From: Azoarcus sp.
Lineage (GTDB): Bacteria; Pseudomonadota; Gammaproteobacteria; Burkholderiales; Rhodocyclaceae
Reading direction: 5' to 3'
Assembly (NCBI GenBank): GCA_031285965.1
Contig: JAITVD010000079.1
Span: 1 to 33,860 of the forward strand
DNA: 33,860 nt
Made by a program: the position numbers and the translations under genes. Positions 15,093-22,405 of the stretch are shown piece after piece (the first letter of the stretch is position 1; each line of letters starts with the position of its first letter). Below the pieces are notes generated by a model. The model did no database searches. It saw only the letters and a program-made list of their open reading frames with translations, and was not told the origin of the DNA.

Positions 15093-15599
15093 TCAAGCCC
15101 AGTGCATCTGCCAGCGTCCGGTATGTTCGCCTTTGCGCGGACTGTCCGGCTCGGCTTGGCCGCAGATGACGCGCTGGCAGCGTCCGGCTCGCAGCCAAGC
15201 GGCGGCAAGCGTTCGCGCCCGCTGCCAGTGCGTTGCCGCGTCGTCGGGCCAGGGCTGGTAGAGCGCGTTTTCAATGCAGGAAAAACGCTTTCGCAGGGTG
15301 GTGGCGGCGACAATGGGCTGCGAGGCGAGGAAATCAAACGGGAATACGGGTTCTCGGGCTATTTCGACACAGGAGACGAGGCGGTTTCCGATGTCGGTAA
15401 TGCCCGTGCGCGAACCCCACAGCACGATGGTCGGCATGTCGGGCTGCCCGTCGAGCATCGCCGCAACGCCAACAATGACTAGTTCAACCAATGGGCCAGC
15501 GCGGCGCAGCGGCATGGCGGCATGTTGCCGCGCAAGGGCGGAGAGGGCGTCCGGCTCAAAACGATGTTCCGTCACGGCGCTGGTTTTCGGAGGGTTCAT
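15093..15599 (-). CDS. Short ketosynthase-like protein without catalytic cysteine (possible chain-length-factor-like partner)
   Basis: A 168-residue protein. The segments GPLVELVIVGVAAML, PTIVLWGSRTGITDIGNRLV and PFDFLASQPIVAATTLRKRF resemble the N-terminal half of ketosynthases or of the beta-ketoacyl synthase-like partners (KS-beta/chain-length factor, ketoacyl-synt_2) seen in aryl-polyene and type II polyketide operons. The position expected for the catalytic cysteine is not a cysteine, and the C-terminal ketosynthase half with its histidines is missing, so it should not condense by itself. Full chain-length factors are about 400 residues and the short family about 240, so this is unusually small. 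It starts 13 bp after the active ketosynthase and is the last gene of the operon. Homology is remote; the family call is tentative. Confidence 0.6.
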   Translation of the reverse strand: MNPPKTSAVTEHRFEPDALSALARQHAAMPLRRAGPLVELVIVGVAAMLDGQPDMPTIVLWGSRTGITDIGNRLVSCVEIAREPVFPFDFLASQPIVAATTLRKRFSCIENALYQPWPDDAATHWQRARTLAAAWLRAGRCQRVICGQAEPDSPRKGEHTGRWQMHWA

Positions 15600-15612
15600 C
15601 TCAAAACGCGCC

Positions 15613-16704
15613 TCAGCCTGAAATGCCGCCCAAAAATGGCGGCGGCGCGGTTTTTTCCGAGCCGCTTTCCGGCGCGGGGCAGCGTTCAATGATGACAGCG
15701 GCCATGCTGCCGCCGAAGCCCGCAAAGCTGAACAGCAATCGCTGCGGTGAACATGCGCCGGATTGGTCGGACTGCGCCAGCAGGGCGGTGATTTCGGCGG
15801 GGCCGCTGGCACCCAGCGTATGCCCGATTTGGTGTTTGATGGGGCGTTCTAGCGGTCTGTTCGTGCCGAAAACGATGTTGAGCGCGGCGTTCTCGGCATC
15901 GTCGATGCCTGCCAAGCCGCCGCGATGCGGCTTGATGAAATCAATCTGGCTCGCGGCGAGTTTGGCATCATCCAGCGCGGCGGCGATGTTGGCGGCAATG
16001 GGGTGTCCGTCGGGGGCGGGCAGGGTGGGCGAATGGCCGTCGATGCCCATCCGGCAAGCGGCAATTCGCCAGCCTGATCCGGGGCGGGTTGTGAGAAGCA
16101 TTCCGGCGGCGGCTTCGCCGAGAATCAGCCCGTTGGCTTTCGGCGTTCGGGCGAGCAGTCCGAGGCTGGAAAAACCGGCAAGCGCCGTGGTGCTGGCAAA
16201 GTCAGCGCCAAGTACGATGGCTTCGTTGATTTCGCCTTGCGCAATGAGCGTAAAAGCGGCTTCCAGCGCGGCCAAGCCGGATGTGCAGGCGGTGGAAAAC
16301 ATCCACGGCGCGGCATCGCAGCCAAAGGCGAGCCGAATTTCCTGATTGAGAACGACGGTGTCATCAGCGGAAATGTCTGTGCTGCCCGCAATCCGCGCCG
16401 CCGCTTCGATTGCGCCGGTTCCGTTTGCGGAGGAGCCAACAAAAAGCGGCAGATGCCCTAATGCGGACGGCGGTTTTCCGTCGGCAAGCTCGGTTGCGAG
16501 CAAGTTCAGCGCACGGCGGGCGCGGACCGTCCAGTTTTCTTCCGCGAAGGGCAGGGCGAACCAAGGCCATGTTTCGCCGTGCAGCGTGTGTTCAGAGAGG
16601 TTTCTTCTGCCTGCGCGAAGCGTTCTGGCGGCTTCGGTGGCGCAGAGGCCGAGCGCCGACACATGGGCGATGCGGCGGATATAGACGGGGCGGGCGGCGC
16701 TCAT
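15613..16704 (-). CDS. Beta-ketoacyl-ACP synthase (KAS I/II type)
   Basis: A 363-residue condensing enzyme with the thiolase-like fold. The nucleophile is in FSTACTSGLAALEAA (Cys140). The two histidines are in IKPHRGGLAG (His260, replacing the usual AHGTGT context) and KHQIGHTLGASGPAE (His295). The Cys-His-His set indicates decarboxylative condensation of an ACP-bound extender onto an acyl chain. The altered surroundings of the first histidine and the GEAAAG in place of GEGAG mark it as a specialised synthase, not housekeeping FabF. Its ATG overlaps the ACP stop (ATGA), so the ACP is probably its dedicated carrier. At 363 residues it is shorter than FabF (about 410), mainly in the N-terminal region. 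Confidence 0.85.
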   Translation of the reverse strand: MSAARPVYIRRIAHVSALGLCATEAARTLRAGRRNLSEHTLHGETWPWFALPFAEENWTVRARRALNLLATELADGKPPSALGHLPLFVGSSANGTGAIEAAARIAGSTDISADDTVVLNQEIRLAFGCDAAPWMFSTACTSGLAALEAAFTLIAQGEINEAIVLGADFASTTALAGFSSLGLLARTPKANGLILGEAAAGMLLTTRPGSGWRIAACRMGIDGHSPTLPAPDGHPIAANIAAALDDAKLAASQIDFIKPHRGGLAGIDDAENAALNIVFGTNRPLERPIKHQIGHTLGASGPAEITALLAQSDQSGACSPQRLLFSFAGFGGSMAAVIIERCPAPESGSEKTAPPPFLGGISG

Positions 16705-16964
16705 TCAGCCGCTTTCCGCGCTGCCAGCCAAGCCGCGAGGCAGGCGACATTGGCGAAAATTTGGCGGGTTTCCTTGCTGTCCGTGACACGGACGCCAAAT
16801 TTTTTCTGCAAGGCCATCGAAAGCTGCAAGGCATCGAGCGAATCGAGGGCAAGCGGCGCTTCCGCGCCGAACAGCGGCTCATCGTCGGCAATGGAGGCCG
16901 GGTCGCGGTCTTTGTCGCAGGCTTGGACAATCAAGGTTTTGAGGGCATCTTTCAGGTCGTTCAT
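16701..16964 (-). CDS. Acyl carrier protein
   Basis: An 87-residue carrier protein. The phosphopantetheine attachment serine is Ser42 in APLALDSLDALQLSMALQ, close to the canonical DSLD/DSLE motif. The helices before (LKDALKTLIVQA) and after (CLAAWLAARKAA) fit the four-helix fold. The ATG at 16964 overlaps the permease stop and the TGA overlaps the ketosynthase start. It differs from housekeeping AcpP, which carries DSLDTVELVMALEEEF, and is likely devoted to this operon, carrying the acyl group that the ketosynthase extends and the BtrH-like enzyme may transfer. It needs a 4'-phosphopantetheinyl transferase encoded elsewhere. Confidence 0.88.
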   Translation of the reverse strand: MNDLKDALKTLIVQACDKDRDPASIADDEPLFGAEAPLALDSLDALQLSMALQKKFGVRVTDSKETRQIFANVACLAAWLAARKAAE

Positions 16965-18172
16965 GTCGGGCGGGCGCGGCAATTGAGAAAAACGGCGGCG
17001 GCTAGCGCCGCCAAGCCAAAGCAGGACAGCGCGAAGAAGCTGGGCAGGATGTCGGCAACGCCGCCTTGGCGCAGCATGGCTTGATGAAAGCCTTCAAGCG
17101 CCCAGTCCATTGGCGAGAGGCGCGTCCACTGCTGCATCGCGCCAGGCATGATGAAGCGGGGAACCATGATGCCGCCGATAGCGCCCATCAAGATGTTGCC
17201 GATGCCGCCCAGAATGGTGGCTTGCTCGCTGCTGCGTGCCAAGGAGGCGATGAGCAGCGCCCAGGCGGTTGCCGCGATGCTGACGGCAAGGCTCATCAGC
17301 AGCAGCGCGGCGATGCCTTGCGTTGTGGCGGGCAGGGCGAACGCCTCGCCGCCGCACAGCGGCACAAGCCAGCGGCCAACCGCGACCATGAGCACCGCCT
17401 GCATTTGGTTGATGAACAGATAAGGCGCGAATTTGCCCGCCAGCATCAAGCCGAAGGAGACGCGCTGGGCGCGGAGGCGCTGCAAAGTGCCGCGCTGCCG
17501 TTCGCCAATAAAGACCGCCGAAATCGGGATGACGACGAAAAACATCGAAAAAATAAGCCAAGCCGGAACGTTCTGCTGTACGGAAGAGGGCAGCGGGGCG
17601 CTTCCGTTGCCGTCGCGCCCAACCGTTTCGGCAATGATGGACGGCGGGCCGACGCGCTCCGTGGCGTGGCGAAGCTGCGGCAGCATCATGCTTTGCCCAA
17701 GGCGTTCGAGGACATGCGCAAGCCATGTCCTGATGACGGCTGTTTCGACGATTTGGCGGAATCCGCCGCGCATCGCGGCAGGCACGGCGGGGTCGGACAA
17801 GATGCGGATTTCCGGCGTTTGGTTCGCGCCGACCTGCTGGGCAAATCCCTGCGGAATGATGACCGCAAAAGCAATCTCCCTGTCCCGCACTTGACGGCGG
17901 ATTTCCGCTTCGCCAGAGGGGGAAGGCGTTTTGCGGAGAGCCTCGGTGTCGCCCATCTGCGCGTCGAGCGCGCGGGAAATCGGCGTTGCGTCAATATCCA
18001 GCACGGCATAGGCAAGGGAGGCTTCCCGCTGGCCGGAAAGCGAATCCGCGAGCGCCAGCGACATGACCAGAATGAAAACCGCAGGCATGGCAAAAAGCGC
18101 GGCCAGCGCGTGCCAGTCGCGCACAAGCGCCAAGCATTCTTTTTTCCAGAGTGCCGCCAACGGAATGAGCAA
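16961..18172 (-). CDS. ABC-2 type transporter permease
   Basis: A 403-residue ABC-2 permease: an N-terminal membrane helix (ALAALFAMPAVFILVMSLAL), a large extracytoplasmic domain of about 180 residues, and five C-terminal helices beginning with VPAWLIFSMFFVVIPISAVF. The connecting ERQRGTLQRLRAQRVS is the typical ABC-2 coupling region, as in YhhJ/DrrB-like exporters. The start is a TTG at 18172, chosen because AAGGAG stands seven bases upstream and no in-frame ATG is near. It follows the ATPase gene by 23 bp and overlaps the ACP gene by 4 bp. It should form the membrane part of an exporter for the operon's product, or for a lipid precursor of it. Confidence 0.9.
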   Translation of the reverse strand: MLIPLAALWKKECLALVRDWHALAALFAMPAVFILVMSLALADSLSGQREASLAYAVLDIDATPISRALDAQMGDTEALRKTPSPSGEAEIRRQVRDREIAFAVIIPQGFAQQVGANQTPEIRILSDPAVPAAMRGGFRQIVETAVIRTWLAHVLERLGQSMMLPQLRHATERVGPPSIIAETVGRDGNGSAPLPSSVQQNVPAWLIFSMFFVVIPISAVFIGERQRGTLQRLRAQRVSFGLMLAGKFAPYLFINQMQAVLMVAVGRWLVPLCGGEAFALPATTQGIAALLLMSLAVSIAATAWALLIASLARSSEQATILGGIGNILMGAIGGIMVPRFIMPGAMQQWTRLSPMDWALEGFHQAMLRQGGVADILPSFFALSCFGLAALAAAVFLNCRARPT

Positions 18173-18195
18173 ATGAATTCTCCTTTGCGGCGAAT

Positions 18196-18921
18196 TTATT
18201 CCCGGAGCGAATGCCCGGTGATTTCCATGAACACTTGTTCGAGCGTCCTGCCTTGCTTCACCTCCCCCGTTGGCCCCGCCCGCAGCACTTTTCCGCTGTC
18301 GAGAATCGAGACCTCTTGGCAGACGGCATCCACTTCCTCCATATAGTGGCTGCTATAGACCACGGTGCGCCCGTTTGCGGCGAAGCGGCGCACGGCTTCG
18401 AGCAAAAATTGGCGCGAGGCCGGATCGACGCCCACGGTCGGCTCATCGAGCAACAAGATTTCCGGTGCGCCGACAAGGCCGATGGCCAGATTCAGGCGTC
18501 GCCGCAGCCCGCCGGAAAGCTCTTCCGCCCGCTGTTTGGCAACAGCCTCAAGACGGGCAAAGGCCAGCGCCTCGTCGCACAGGCGCGTCCGCTGCGGGCG
18601 GGGAATACCTTGCACACCGGAGAAAAACGCAAGGTTTTCGGCGACCGTCAGCATCGGGTAGAAAGCGTAATCCTGCGGAACCAGCGCGATGGCGCGGGGA
18701 TGCGTCGCACGCCAAGCATCGAGCGGCTCGCCGACAATGGAAATTTGCCCTGCGGGGTGCGGGAGCAGTCCCGCCAGCAAGGAAATCAGCGTGGTTTTAC
18801 CCGCGCCGTTTGGGCCGAGCAAGCCGTGGACAGCGCCACGCGCAATGTTGAGCGAGATGCCGTCGAGCGCCAAGGGGGCGTTTGGGCGATAGCGGTAGCT
18901 GAGGGAGCCGATGCGAATCAT
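18196..18921 (-). CDS. ABC transporter ATP-binding protein
   Basis: A 241-residue nucleotide-binding subunit with all signature motifs in order: Walker A GPNGAGKT (residues 36-43), Q-loop VPQDYAFYP (about 81-89), signature LSGGLRRRL (135-143) and Walker B ILLLDEPTVGVDP (155-167), followed by the switch histidine in VVYSSHYMEEV. It resembles the DrrA/CcmA group that pairs with ABC-2 permeases, and the permease gene follows. The ATG overlaps the stop of the BtrH-like gene (ATGA), which ties the exporter to the biosynthetic genes. Confidence 0.93.
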   Translation of the reverse strand: MIRIGSLSYRYRPNAPLALDGISLNIARGAVHGLLGPNGAGKTTLISLLAGLLPHPAGQISIVGEPLDAWRATHPRAIALVPQDYAFYPMLTVAENLAFFSGVQGIPRPQRTRLCDEALAFARLEAVAKQRAEELSGGLRRRLNLAIGLVGAPEILLLDEPTVGVDPASRQFLLEAVRRFAANGRTVVYSSHYMEEVDAVCQEVSILDSGKVLRAGPTGEVKQGRTLEQVFMEITGHSLRE

Positions 18922-19925
18922 GAGCGGCGCAATGCTTTCTGGAGCGCGGCGAAAAATGTTTTTTCACGCGCCGCTTGCGTATGCAGCAGCGCCGCGAGAC
19001 GGCGGGTATCCAGCGGGTCACGGTCGCGGATCATGCGGGCGGCGGCCAGCGCGAATTCGCGCCAGAAGTCGCCGATGCCGACAAGCTGCTCGGCCAGTTC
19101 TGCTAGCGCCGGATGGCGGATGCGCACGGCGGCCTCTTCGAGAAAAGCGGCGTACATGAAGCGGAACCCGCCGCCGCCCGTCCCGATTTCTTCCTGCATC
19201 CGTACCAGATGCCCGACGTAGAGCTTGGCGGCCTGCGGGTCGGCGGTGGGCAGTCGCTCGAATGCGCGGGCAACCCGGATGATGCCTTTTGTGCCGATGA
19301 AAGGCAGCGGCGCGTGGAGCATGACCCGCGCGGTTTTTTTGATGGCGGCGGGAATGGCGCGTTCCCAATCCGGCTCCTGCGGGGCGCTTTTCGGGTAATA
19401 CAGCAGCCCTTTGGGCGCGAGCAGGCCACGCGCGAAACGCGCGCGGGCCAGGTCGGCGGGGGCGCAGCGCACGGGCGCTTCCAGCACGGGGTCGGAGAGC
19501 AGGTAATCCCCGGACGATTCGTCGCGCCCATAGGCAAGCAGGTTATGGGCGTTGAAATGAAAGCGGAAATCCGGCGGCATGAACGGCAGCCAGAAAACCG
19601 AAACCTGCAAGCCGACGACATGCCCGTCGGCAAGCAGCTTGTCGAGCTTTGCCGCGCCCGCTTCAGGGCTGCGGAATTTCTCGGAAACCATTGAAAAGCG
19701 CAGCGGTTTCTGTAGACCGCGAATGATTGCGCCGGGCGGCATCCGGTAAGAGACCAGCGGCATTCCCGAGAGTTTGATGAAAGGCAGAAAAGCGAACGCC
19801 AGCGCCGAGGACAGGCCGAACGCCATCGGCTCGGAAAGCGGCATGCCGTGATGGCGAGCGATGGCGCTCATGACGCCGCTTTCGCAGTGGGACGCTTGCT
19901 GGTGGTCGAAGCTGGAGGCCGTCAT
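18918..19925 (-). CDS. BtrH-like acyltransferase (BtrH N-terminal domain plus DUF4872)
   Basis: A 335-residue protein. The N-terminus has the BtrH pattern: HQQASHCESGVMSAIARHHG (His13, Cys14 as the likely nucleophile region), then LSEPMAFGLSSALAF. The middle segment FHFNAHNLLAYGRDESSGDYLLSDP contains the conserved histidine and aspartate of this papain-like fold. The C-terminal about 150 residues correspond to DUF4872. In butirosin synthesis BtrH moves an acyl group from an ACP onto an amine of the antibiotic, so an ACP-to-acceptor acyl transfer is the obvious hypothesis here, with the operon's ACP as donor. The acceptor is unknown. It begins 1 bp after the stop of the 131-residue protein gene and overlaps the ABC ATPase. 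Confidence 0.8.
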   Translation of the reverse strand: MTASSFDHQQASHCESGVMSAIARHHGMPLSEPMAFGLSSALAFAFLPFIKLSGMPLVSYRMPPGAIIRGLQKPLRFSMVSEKFRSPEAGAAKLDKLLADGHVVGLQVSVFWLPFMPPDFRFHFNAHNLLAYGRDESSGDYLLSDPVLEAPVRCAPADLARARFARGLLAPKGLLYYPKSAPQEPDWERAIPAAIKKTARVMLHAPLPFIGTKGIIRVARAFERLPTADPQAAKLYVGHLVRMQEEIGTGGGGFRFMYAAFLEEAAVRIRHPALAELAEQLVGIGDFWREFALAAARMIRDRDPLDTRRLAALLHTQAAREKTFFAALQKALRRS

Positions 19926-19926
19926 T

Positions 19927-20322
19927 TCAGTCGATTGCGCCCAATTGGCCGGGGTGGATGCCCAAGGCTTGCGCGTACCGCTCGCGCAAGCCTTCTGAAA
20001 GACGGGCGAATACGGCTGGGCGGAAATGGCGGCGCACCTGCCAGCGCCACAGCCCGGTTGCTTGCGCGAGCAGGGCAATATCCATGCGGGCGCGGTACAT
20101 GTGGGCTTCGAGCGGGGCGCTTTGTCCGGCGCGTGCGCGTTCCTGCGCGGCAGCGGCCAGCGCGTCGAACATCTGCACGGCTTGGCGGGTGACGGTTTCC
20201 TCGGCTTCCCATCCGCATGTCTGCACGAGGGCGAGTTGCCCATTGCGTGTACGCGCATACACGGCCTTGAGATGCCCGCCGTAAGTGGCGCTGTTTTCCT
20301 GTGGAACGTCGGCGGCGTTCAT
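19927..20322 (-). CDS. Unrecognised 131-residue protein of the biosynthetic operon
   Basis: A soluble 131-residue protein with no signal peptide or membrane segment and no family I recognise. The first part may be a small beta unit (GGHLKAVYARTRNGQLALVQT), followed by a tryptophan (CGWEAEE) and mostly helical sequence (VQMFDALAAAAQERAR, HMYRARMDIALLAQATGLW), then a basic stretch RWQVRRHFRPAVFARL. RWQVRRHFRPAVFARL could be part of a helix-turn-helix, but that is weak. It starts 2 bp after the DarB-like gene and stops 1 bp before the BtrH-like gene, so it is almost certainly co-expressed and could be an accessory or docking factor. No catalytic motif is apparent. Confidence 0.7.
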   Translation of the reverse strand: MNAADVPQENSATYGGHLKAVYARTRNGQLALVQTCGWEAEETVTRQAVQMFDALAAAAQERARAGQSAPLEAHMYRARMDIALLAQATGLWRWQVRRHFRPAVFARLSEGLRERYAQALGIHPGQLGAID

Positions 20323-20324
20323 TT

Positions 20325-21473
20325 TTACACCACCGTAAGGTGCATGAACCCGCTTGAAAAACGCCCGCTCTCCGGCACGAAGCAAAGCAGCCGATCGCCT
20401 GGCGCAAGCCGATTGCTGCGTCGCAGTTCGTCGAGCATGATGTAGATGGACGCGGAACCCGTGTTGCCCTTTGTTTCTAGGTTCGTAAACCAGCGCGTGA
20501 ACGGAATCGGCAGCCCGATTCGCGCCAGCGTGTCGTGGATGGGCTGGCGAAAGTAGTGCGACGACATATGCGGCAAAAACCAGTCGATTGCGTCGCTCTT
20601 GAGGTTGCGGCGAGCCATGAGCGCCAAGAGGGGCGTTTCCAGAGTTGCTTCAAGGATGTGGCGATCCAGCAGTTTGACATCCTGTTTTACCGCGAAAAGG
20701 GATTCTTCTGCCCACTGCTTTGGCGGGAACCGCGCCCAGCCGAGCAACGTGCCGTCGGGGTCGCGCTCGCCGCCCGCGTACATGCACACGGGCAAGCGAT
20801 GCGCGGCGGAGGAGAGTTCAATCCAGTCGATGCGAAGGCTGATCGCATCCGTGCGCGGTCGCGGTTCGACAAGAAAAGCGCCCGCGCCGTCGGAAAGCAT
20901 CCAGCGCAGGAAATCCTTTTCAAACGCGATAGCGGGATGTTTGGAGAGCGCCGCCGTGCGGGCGGCGCTTTCCGCTGAGAAATGCTCTGCCCGCATGATG
21001 ACGGACGGCAGTTCGGAACCCGTTGCCACGGCGTTTTTCGCTTCGCCGCTTTTGACCGCGAGCCAAGCGTATTTGAGGGCGGTCAGCCCCGACAGGCAAA
21101 TGCCAGCGGTCGAGACAACCTCACAGGCGGGATTGCCCAGCTCGCCATGCACCATGACACCGTGATTGGGCATGATTTGGTCGGGGATGGAGGTTCCGGT
21201 GACGAGGCATCGCAGGTCATTGAGCGGAAAACCGATTTCTTCCGAGAGCGCCAAAATGGCTTCGGCGGTGAGGCGGGCATTGGTATGCGTGGGGCATCCG
21301 GTTGCGGGGTCAATGGCGTAATGGCGGCTTTTGATGCCGTTCTGGCGCAAGACGATGGCCCGCGCGCGCGAGGGCTTGCCGCCGATTTGCCCCAAAACGG
21401 CCTCAATGGAAGCGTTATCGACTGGCGCGTTGGGCAGGGCGACCGCTGTGGCCGTGATGAAGGCTTCACTCAT
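20325..21473 (-). CDS. KAS III-type ketosynthase, DarB-like
   Basis: A 382-residue condensing enzyme of the FabH/KAS III superfamily. The catalytic triad is visible: Cys126 in STAGICLSGLTALKYA, His302 in FLPHMSSHYF and Asn337 in KGNTGSASIYIML. Length and motif spacing fit the DarB group that joins two beta-ketoacyl chains to a dialkylresorcinol or cyclohexanedione precursor, and its neighbour is a DarA-like gene as in dar operons. A different priming or condensation reaction is possible, since KAS III enzymes diverge widely in substrate. The ATG overlaps the DarA-like stop (ATGA). Confidence 0.82.
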   Translation of the reverse strand: MSEAFITATAVALPNAPVDNASIEAVLGQIGGKPSRARAIVLRQNGIKSRHYAIDPATGCPTHTNARLTAEAILALSEEIGFPLNDLRCLVTGTSIPDQIMPNHGVMVHGELGNPACEVVSTAGICLSGLTALKYAWLAVKSGEAKNAVATGSELPSVIMRAEHFSAESAARTAALSKHPAIAFEKDFLRWMLSDGAGAFLVEPRPRTDAISLRIDWIELSSAAHRLPVCMYAGGERDPDGTLLGWARFPPKQWAEESLFAVKQDVKLLDRHILEATLETPLLALMARRNLKSDAIDWFLPHMSSHYFRQPIHDTLARIGLPIPFTRWFTNLETKGNTGSASIYIMLDELRRSNRLAPGDRLLCFVPESGRFSSGFMHLTVV

Positions 21474-22405
21474 GGGTTCATGCGCGAGCCATCCGCGCCA
21501 GACGGTTGTTCATAGCGGCGGACAGCCTCGGCGAGGCGGCAGGCAAACAGCTTTGCGGCGAGGCGCTGCAAAACGAAGAGCAGGGGAACGACGGTCACAA
21601 TGATGGCGACAAGATAGAGCGCGAACAGCGCGAGCGCGGGAATCCGCCGCCGCTGTCCGGCGTGGCCGCAGACGCGGATAAGTTTTGACCACACGCGGAA
21701 AGATCGCTGCCCGGCGCGTTCGGACATGAGCAGATAAGGCACGACACTGACCGCCCGCAGGCCGCCCAGCATGGGCTGCCCACTTTTTTCCGCGTCGCGG
21801 GCCAGTGCCGTGGCGAGCGCCTTGCCAAACCTTTCCGCGCCTGCCGTTTGCTGGGGCGTAAGGCCGGCGGGCGGCATGCCCAGAAAGCGGTCGCGCCGTC
21901 CGGTCAGCATCCAGCGCGGCGTTGTGACGAAAGTGAGCAGCGGCGGGGATTCGTCGGTCAGCGCCGCATGGTCGACGAGCCGTCCTCCGGTTTCCGCGAC
22001 CAGCGCCCGGAATGTGTCTAACGCGGACAGCCACATGTTGCGGCAGGCCACGAGACTCACCACCGGCTTGCCCGCCAACAGGCGACGGGCTTGGCTGCTT
22101 TGCAGAAAGGCGGTCATGGGCTGCGAGGGGGAGAGATACCAGACCGTCCAGGCGAGGATGACCAAGTCAAAGTCGGCGGCATCCGGTACGCCGAGGGGTT
22201 TGTTGGGGCGCGGGTCAAGGCAGACCGATTCCGGGAATGCGTCCAGAAAGGCGAAAAACGGCCAAGGGAAGGGAAACGCGGGTTCTGGGCGCAGCACTTC
22301 ATGATGGACGCGGACGTTCTCTGTTGCGAGCGGTCGCGCCAAAGCGGCAACAACGTCGGAAAGTTGGCCGCTCTGGGAGTAGGAGACGACGAGAACGTTT
22401 TTCAT
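21470..22405 (-). CDS. Flavodoxin-fold protein, DarA-like ('dialkylresorcinol condensing enzyme' family)
   Basis: A 311-residue protein whose N-terminus MKNVLVVSYSQSGQLSDVV is a flavodoxin-type FMN phosphate-binding loop (SYSQSGQL). The second part of the fold is seen in DFDLVILAWTVWYLSPSQPM and KPVVSLVACRNMW. The C-terminal about 60 residues contain a hydrophobic helix (ALFALYLVAIIVTVVPLLFVL) that probably holds it at the membrane. Proteins like this, next to a KAS III gene, are annotated as DarA-like in other genomes; DarA is thought to aromatise the DarB product. The ATG at 22405 is 25 bp after the secF stop, so this is the first gene of the nine-gene operon. The DarA link rests on family memory and gene pairing. 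Confidence 0.72.
   Translation of the reverse strand: MKNVLVVSYSQSGQLSDVVAALARPLATENVRVHHEVLRPEPAFPFPWPFFAFLDAFPESVCLDPRPNKPLGVPDAADFDLVILAWTVWYLSPSQPMTAFLQSSQARRLLAGKPVVSLVACRNMWLSALDTFRALVAETGGRLVDHAALTDESPPLLTFVTTPRWMLTGRRDRFLGMPPAGLTPQQTAGAERFGKALATALARDAEKSGQPMLGGLRAVSVVPYLLMSERAGQRSFRVWSKLIRVCGHAGQRRRIPALALFALYLVAIIVTVVPLLFVLQRLAAKLFACRLAEAVRRYEQPSGADGSRMNP

Follow-up and report, generated by a model that had tools for sequence, protein, structure and literature searches.

A nine-gene operon on the minus strand of a 33,860-nt stretch of Azoarcus sp. DNA (contig JAITVD010000079.1; hereafter the window) very probably makes and exports a dialkylresorcinol (DAR) and belongs to the Azoarcus BH72 type. 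Dialkylresorcinols are ring lipids that are often joined to yellow polyene pigments. The cluster type has already been described and the window holds a further member. New here are the match between the folds of DarK and ApeC, the probable fold of DarD and the co-occurrence of DarE with aryl polyene (APE) genes, and annotations are improved for these three genes, which are hypothetical or loosely named in the BH72 cluster. The operon runs from 22405 to 15093 in the order DarA-like protein, DarB, 131-residue protein, BtrH_N/DUF4872 protein, ABC ATPase, ABC-2 permease, acyl carrier protein (ACP), ketosynthase and mini-ketosynthase, with junctions of -4, +2, +1, -4, +23, -4, -4 and +13 bases. The first-pass annotation of this DNA had described nine tightly packed same-strand genes, in agreement with these junctions, and every catalytic residue that it named is present in the window proteins. 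The genes are:

21470..22405, minus strand: DarA-like, flavodoxin-like aromatase/oxidase of dialkylresorcinol synthesis (Azoarcus darA); order as in BH72, relatives' profile against 2mwm
20325..21473, minus strand: DarB, StlD/DarB-family ketosynthase/cyclase; NF005293, catalytic triad, StlD 5gk0
19927..20322, minus strand: DarD (Azoarcus name; NCBIfam DarG family), 131 residues, probable C-terminal Cro/C1-type helix-turn-helix fold; NF053536
18918..19925, minus strand: DarE (Azoarcus name; NCBIfam DarH_acyl), BtrH_N and DUF4872 cysteine acyltransferase, candidate polyene-DAR ester synthase; NF053550, PF14399, PF16169
18196..18921, minus strand: DarF, ABC transporter ATPase; PF00005 E 4e-31, order as in BH72
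16961..18172, minus strand: DarI, ABC-2 transporter permease; PF12698 E 7e-36, TTG start with AGGAG upstream
16701..16964, minus strand: DarC, acyl carrier protein with Ser42; PF00550 E 1.4e-6
15613..16704, minus strand: DarJ, ketosynthase with Cys140/His260/His295; PF00109 and PF02801 over cut-off
15093..15599, minus strand: DarK, half-size partner of DarJ resembling a chain length factor; fold and Arg-Arg pair

The identification is carried by the gene list and its order. Table 1 of PMC3949708 gives the Azoarcus sp. BH72 dar cluster (azo0283-azo0293) as darA, darB, darD (hypothetical), darE (BtrH-like), darF (ABC ATPase), darG and darH (PhD/PilT), darI (permease), darC (ACP), darJ (ketosynthase) and darK (hypothetical). 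All nine gene kinds of the window occur there in the same order, including the accessory set D, E, F, I, C, J and K; the difference is the PhD/PilT pair, which lies between the ABC genes of BH72 and is absent from the window. The two clusters were compared through gene order and annotation, not through BH72 sequence. According to the same paper, expression of the Azoarcus DAR proteins in E. coli gave the dialkylresorcinol DAR 7, and BH72 produces arcuflavin, proposed to be an ester of DAR 7 and a xanthomonadin-like polyene. Because gene kinds and order equal those of this published cluster, the pathway is not uncharacterised, as had been suggested, nor does it differ from classic dar clusters; it matches a characterised one. 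The accompanying proposal of an acyl or alkyl-ring product built on the operon's own ACP, with DarA/DarB chemistry and an ABC exporter, was right. The lettering of the families differs: by position and domains, the NCBIfam DarG family corresponds to Azoarcus DarD and NCBIfam DarH to Azoarcus DarE. The flexirubin DAR genes of Flavobacterium and Chitinophaga share DarA/DarB, a DarG family protein and the joining of DAR to an aryl polyene, but the window DarD reaches 97.7 bits against flexirubin DarG (NF053545), under the cut-off of 170.

DarA and DarB homologues make DAR, according to PMC3949708 and PMC3992019. DarB scores 585.1 bits against the StlD/DarB model NF005293 (cut-off 450), its Cys126/His302/Asn337 triad is invariant in 80/80 named DarB loci, and its closest solved relative is StlD (5gk0, profile E 4.5e-171). 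That score rules out a housekeeping FabH (the FabH-like match of the own genome reaches 46.5 bits), and DarJ, at 60.5 against the FabF cut-off of 493.75, is no housekeeping FabF, so that by scores neither ketosynthase falls in with the fatty acid enzymes. DarA adjoins DarB with a 4-base overlap and is found in 77 of the 80 named DarB loci. Its proposed flavodoxin fold draws support from the relatives, as a profile of 30 DarA sequences matches 2mwm (putative trp repressor binding protein, E 8e-4) and FMN_red matches 3/30 family members at E<=0.1, but not from the window protein itself, which has no Pfam or NCBIfam match at E<=1; no curated model names the window DarA.

Profiles made from relatives' proteins, run with thresholds of our own on the 80 named DarB loci, find all nine genes in 57. 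Among the 53 loci of at least 21 kb, which have full flanks, 45 carry all nine, 6 have DarB with or without DarA alone and 2 have partial sets. Many genomes keep the gene set in this order, which is hence no chance arrangement. Beta-proteobacterial loci mostly retain the window order, and many Pseudomonas loci consist of two convergent blocks, DarA-B-D-BtrH and ketosynthase-ACP-permease-ATPase. Scattering of the genes in relatives, which would have spoken against a common pathway, is limited: they mostly stay together, and are split in some genomes such as G018 (same contig, DarB at 1.3 kb, BtrH at 15 kb) and G007 (two contigs). In L043 (G018:C36) and L099 the dar genes are split and inverted on one contig, with DarA-B-D at about 0.3-3 kb on the plus strand and BtrH to DarK at about 11-16 kb on the minus strand; L099 shows no BtrH solely because the locus is cut, and G018:C36 carries it. 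The DarA-DarB-only loci (Photorhabdus, some Pseudomonas, Brenneria, Fischerella) share DarB, and DarA in all except the Brenneria locus, but at the same thresholds have no DarD, BtrH-like gene, ABC pair or DarK at the locus. On the DarB tree a single clade (support 100/98) gathers five of these loci, from Brenneria, Pseudomonas (two) and Photorhabdus (two). In the same tree the window sits with its congeners in an eight-row set (100/86).

DarE scores 456.5 bits against NF053550 (DarH_acyl, cut-off 300) and is over cut-off for BtrH_N (PF14399) and DUF4872 (PF16169), which bears out the first-pass call of a BtrH/DUF4872 protein and gives it a family name. Cys14, His127 and Asp145 are each invariant in 71/71 named rows; searching the DarE sequence by itself against solved structures gave no match. 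Besides the ketosynthase pair, DarE is the sole evident acyl-transfer enzyme among the accessory genes. Among 377 class genomes, sampled evenly and at least 95% complete, 18 have DarH_acyl over the curated cut-off and all 18, the own genome among them, have Ketoacyl-synt_2 (PF13723), the APE marker, which is present in 91/377 (hypergeometric P 1.9e-12, relatedness not corrected). By handle labels the 18 span 15 families, and in 8 of them both genes lie on one contig within 30 kb. At E<=0.001 NF053550 is found in 23/377, of which only the 18 over cut-off were counted; among the five below it (G158, G225, G256, G477 and G510) only G225 has PF13723. The 14 control genomes gave 0/14 for NF053550 and 1/14 for PF13723, and among 100 relatives, 41 of which have PF13723, it is present in 15 of the 19 DarH-positive genomes.

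Of the named genomes, PF13723 is present in 42/42 that have the BtrH-like gene versus 4/7 that are DarA-DarB-only (Fisher 0.0019), a class defined at the locus alone (L120 ends 2.4 kb after DarB). This search covered 49 of the 80 named loci: 50 were chosen and L166 was left out, and the 30 others left aside are L096-L100 (congeners), 8 Variovorax, 9 Pseudomonas, L103, L111, L115, L133, L135, L142, L145 and L151. Within it, G133 (L146) reaches only 34.8 bits, and the open frames that hold the matches of G139 and G145 are about 745 residues long. That the PF13723 match of G113 might be the DarK of L109 was considered and dropped, as that DarK is unmatched by PF13723. PF22818 is a weak marker by comparison: it is missing from G082, a genome with dar and PF13723, and stays below cut-off in G033 and G046. 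Across genomes the BtrH-like gene keeps closer company with the polyene genes than do DarA and DarB by themselves. This pattern would not be expected of a role in export only or in fatty acyl transfer, but linked clusters inherited together could account for part of it. Co-occurrence and the intact Cys-His-Asp set nominate DarE as a candidate that may act as polyene-DAR ester synthase. PMC3992019 leaves the joining of polyene and resorcinol in flexirubin as a guess, a 'ligase-like enzyme' FlxW, and our literature search, in which most subscription papers were beyond reach, found no paper naming a BtrH-like protein as an ester synthase. DarE is put forward as a sharp, testable candidate for the coupling of polyene to resorcinol in pigments of the arcuflavin kind. 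In congener G015 the BtrH-like gene occurs in two copies, on contigs C5 and C24.

The own genome (2.34 Mb in 90 contigs, 97.8% complete; the window is contig C47) carries an APE locus, as an arcuflavin-type pathway requires. Its one PF13723 match is on C74, in a run of chain length factor (CLF), acyltransferase, two ACPs, AMP-ligase/ApeI-like fusion, glycosyltransferase, LpxL-like acyltransferase, thioesterase-like and LolA-like genes and an HpnN-like exporter truncated by the contig end; the thioesterase-like, LolA-like and exporter matches are below curated cut-offs. C28, with ApeO and ApeP homologues 77% and 74% identical to those of congener G008, looks like the continuation of this run. 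Elsewhere in the genus, in G004 (78% complete, with no DarH match), DarB lies about 6-7 kb from an APE chain length factor on C101, a physical link of both pathways.

Several observations weigh against this interpretation. DarB stays below the narrow 'exception' model NF053539 (resorcinol_DarB, 474.7 against 550) and is therefore filed in the wider StlD/DarB family, and with Chitinophaga pinensis genes DarA and DarB alone gave DAR, so that DarJ, DarK and DarC were not strictly needed there (PMC3992019). The APE locus is interrupted: a DUF6402 protein and small open reading frames stand between the glycosyltransferase and the LpxL-like acyltransferase (L027:9445-9852, G000:C74), a DNA cytosine-methyltransferase-like gene and its 288-residue partner, restriction-modification-like by eye, stand between the exporter and a lipoprotein-like gene (L083:1141-2960, G000:C28), and unrelated genes follow ApeP on C28. 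No ApeQ orthologue was found in the assembly, where contig ends are nearby and the best ketoreductase matches have 43-45% identity, as against 84-85% for congeners G009 and G013 with the ApeQ of the query genome G008; nor was the second APE ketosynthase, ApeR, seen. ApeR may be dispensable, because ApeO-ApeC alone, of the two ketosynthases, is reported to give the fully elongated polyene (PMC8358021). A ketoreductase is needed, and FabG might serve in place of ApeQ. Finally, the DarH-positive congeners G003 (93% complete), G006 (87%), G011 (66%) and G019 (98%) have none of PF13723, PF22818 and an APE ligase orthologue; judging from G019 and G003, the dar genes may be kept where APE is absent.

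These gaps in the APE locus, the congeners G019 and G003 and the existence of DarA-DarB-only loci all favour an alternative in which the operon makes a free, exported dialkylresorcinol, DarE transfers an ordinary fatty acyl group or trims a thioester, and the APE locus has no part in the pathway or no longer works. The tie of the BtrH-like gene to the APE marker, complete in the class sample and in the named genomes and looser in the DarA-DarB-only genomes, argues the other way, and we regard this alternative as somewhat less likely than not. For the own genome the outcome is evenly balanced: because it carries an APE locus, an arcuflavin-like DAR-polyene ester is likely the product if the interrupted locus works, and otherwise free DAR, which stays in play because of the interruptions and the two genes not found.

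DarC Ser42 is invariant in 62/62 rows. DarJ Cys140 and His295, two of three catalytic residues proposed for the ketosynthase, are present in 59/59 rows; the third, His260, is present in the window but occurs in 29/59, with Gln in 30/59. DarK had been called a mini-ketosynthase without cysteine. Taken literally this is wrong, since it has four (77, 108, 141 and 146), but no cysteine is found among the columns conserved in at least 90% of 55 DarK sequences (window included). The fold of DarK resembles that of ApeC, which serves APE synthesis as a half-size chain length factor, and DarK shares with the ApeO-ApeC pair (6QSP, 7F28) a single thiolase fold of half size, an invariant Arg-Arg pair and an adjacent ketosynthase. 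It differs in that PF13723, which matches ApeC, matches neither the window DarK nor 10 relatives; PF00109 gives weak matches to two of those 10, and in one case narrowly passes its cut-off (21.0 bits against 20.8). In hhalign, the probability for a first-pass DarK profile (29 members) was 0.2 with a tight APE-CLF profile and 47.5 with a wider CLF set. An iterated profile gave 93.6; its search had recruited 11 CLFs, which were removed before building, and the sequence link was set aside as partly circular, so that the assignment rests on the fold. We infer that DarK is an ApeC-like half-size chain length factor and the partner of DarJ.

A second alternative takes DarJ-DarK as an AmcF-AmcG-like pair of the cispentacin type, which performs one C2 elongation plus cyclisation (PMC10698177), with ring chemistry unlike a plain DAR. 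DarJ does match AmcF (NF058662, E 2e-22), and the only NCBIfam match of the window DarK is AmcG (E 0.028), but neither score comes near its family cut-off (79.7 against 325, and 14.1 against 80 for NF058659), none of nine further DarKs matches AmcG at E<=1 in the NCBIfam scan, DarB is the cyclase in DAR clusters and the operon has no AmcH-like ligase; the assignment was rejected as very unlikely. Slighter still is the chance that the BtrH-like enzyme works on an amine, as in butirosin, and that the operon encodes a new route to an acylated amine, either a lipopeptide or an aminolipid: BtrH's own acceptor is an amine, and the domains and the Cys14/His127/Asp145 set agree with it, but the operon matches a characterised DAR cluster, Pfam and NCBIfam scans show no amine-supplying gene in it and the BtrH-like gene co-occurs with APE, so that the amine transfer first suggested gives way to polyene transfer to a resorcinol hydroxyl, better supported yet still a prediction from sequence.

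DarD is no orphan, as had been thought, since it scores 148.7 bits against NF053536 (DarG_fam, cut-off 70). It probably has a C-terminal Cro/C1-type helix-turn-helix fold, and the claim that the operon has no regulator is for that reason unsafe; DarD is an accessory protein, regulator or not. Its profile matches a designed protein among solved structures (E 0.004, remaining rows weaker), and HicB-like antitoxins match at Foldseek E ~0.2. DarD and the BtrH-like gene are both present or both absent in 79/80 loci, the exception being the cut locus L099.

From these parts a route can be drawn. DarJ and its chain length factor DarK would build a beta-ketoacyl chain on DarC, which DarB, as reported for homologues, would condense with a second acyl chain and cyclise; flavodoxin-like DarA, again by analogy with homologues, would aromatise the ring to a 2,5-dialkylresorcinol. 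DarE would then take an acyl group, most probably the completed aryl polyene, off its carrier and place it on a hydroxyl of DAR, as co-occurrence and Cys-His-Asp suggest, and DarF/DarI would carry the product across the inner membrane. The specific proposal that DarE esterifies the resorcinol with a carrier-bound polyene, that DarJ-DarK is a second, ApeO-ApeC-like pair serving the resorcinol chain and that DarD is a helix-turn-helix protein turned enzyme partner is tentative, and as a whole we put it a little short of an even chance. If true, the accessory set would be a transferable 'polyene-to-resorcinol' coupling and export module.

The darA start lies 25 bases after secF. SecF is upstream of dar in 3/18 relatives' loci, no more than 30 bases away in L036 and L038 and at a distance of about 350 in L041, and some of the remaining loci of these 18 stop near that point. 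Promoter and terminator scans were at chance level. The DarF ATPase has 241 residues in the window versus a 307-residue open frame in L043, where the surplus precedes the common C-terminal end. The BtrH-like dar gene is over cut-off in 16/21 genus genomes examined (own included). The nearest named DarB loci are those of Azoarcus sp. Jx357_bin15, Zoogloeaceae Mcx344_bin48, Betaproteobacteria Th196P3bin67, Azoarcus sp. Gx481_bin58 and Zoogloeaceae Kf353_bin75. Apart from Th196, we take these isolate names to be those of termite-gut samples. Th196 stands for the termite Termes hospes (PMC7024585). The own genome also holds two type I polyketide synthase-like open frames with ketosynthase domains, of 2324 and 1496 residues and about 6 kb apart (L084, G000:C66:30001-50000).

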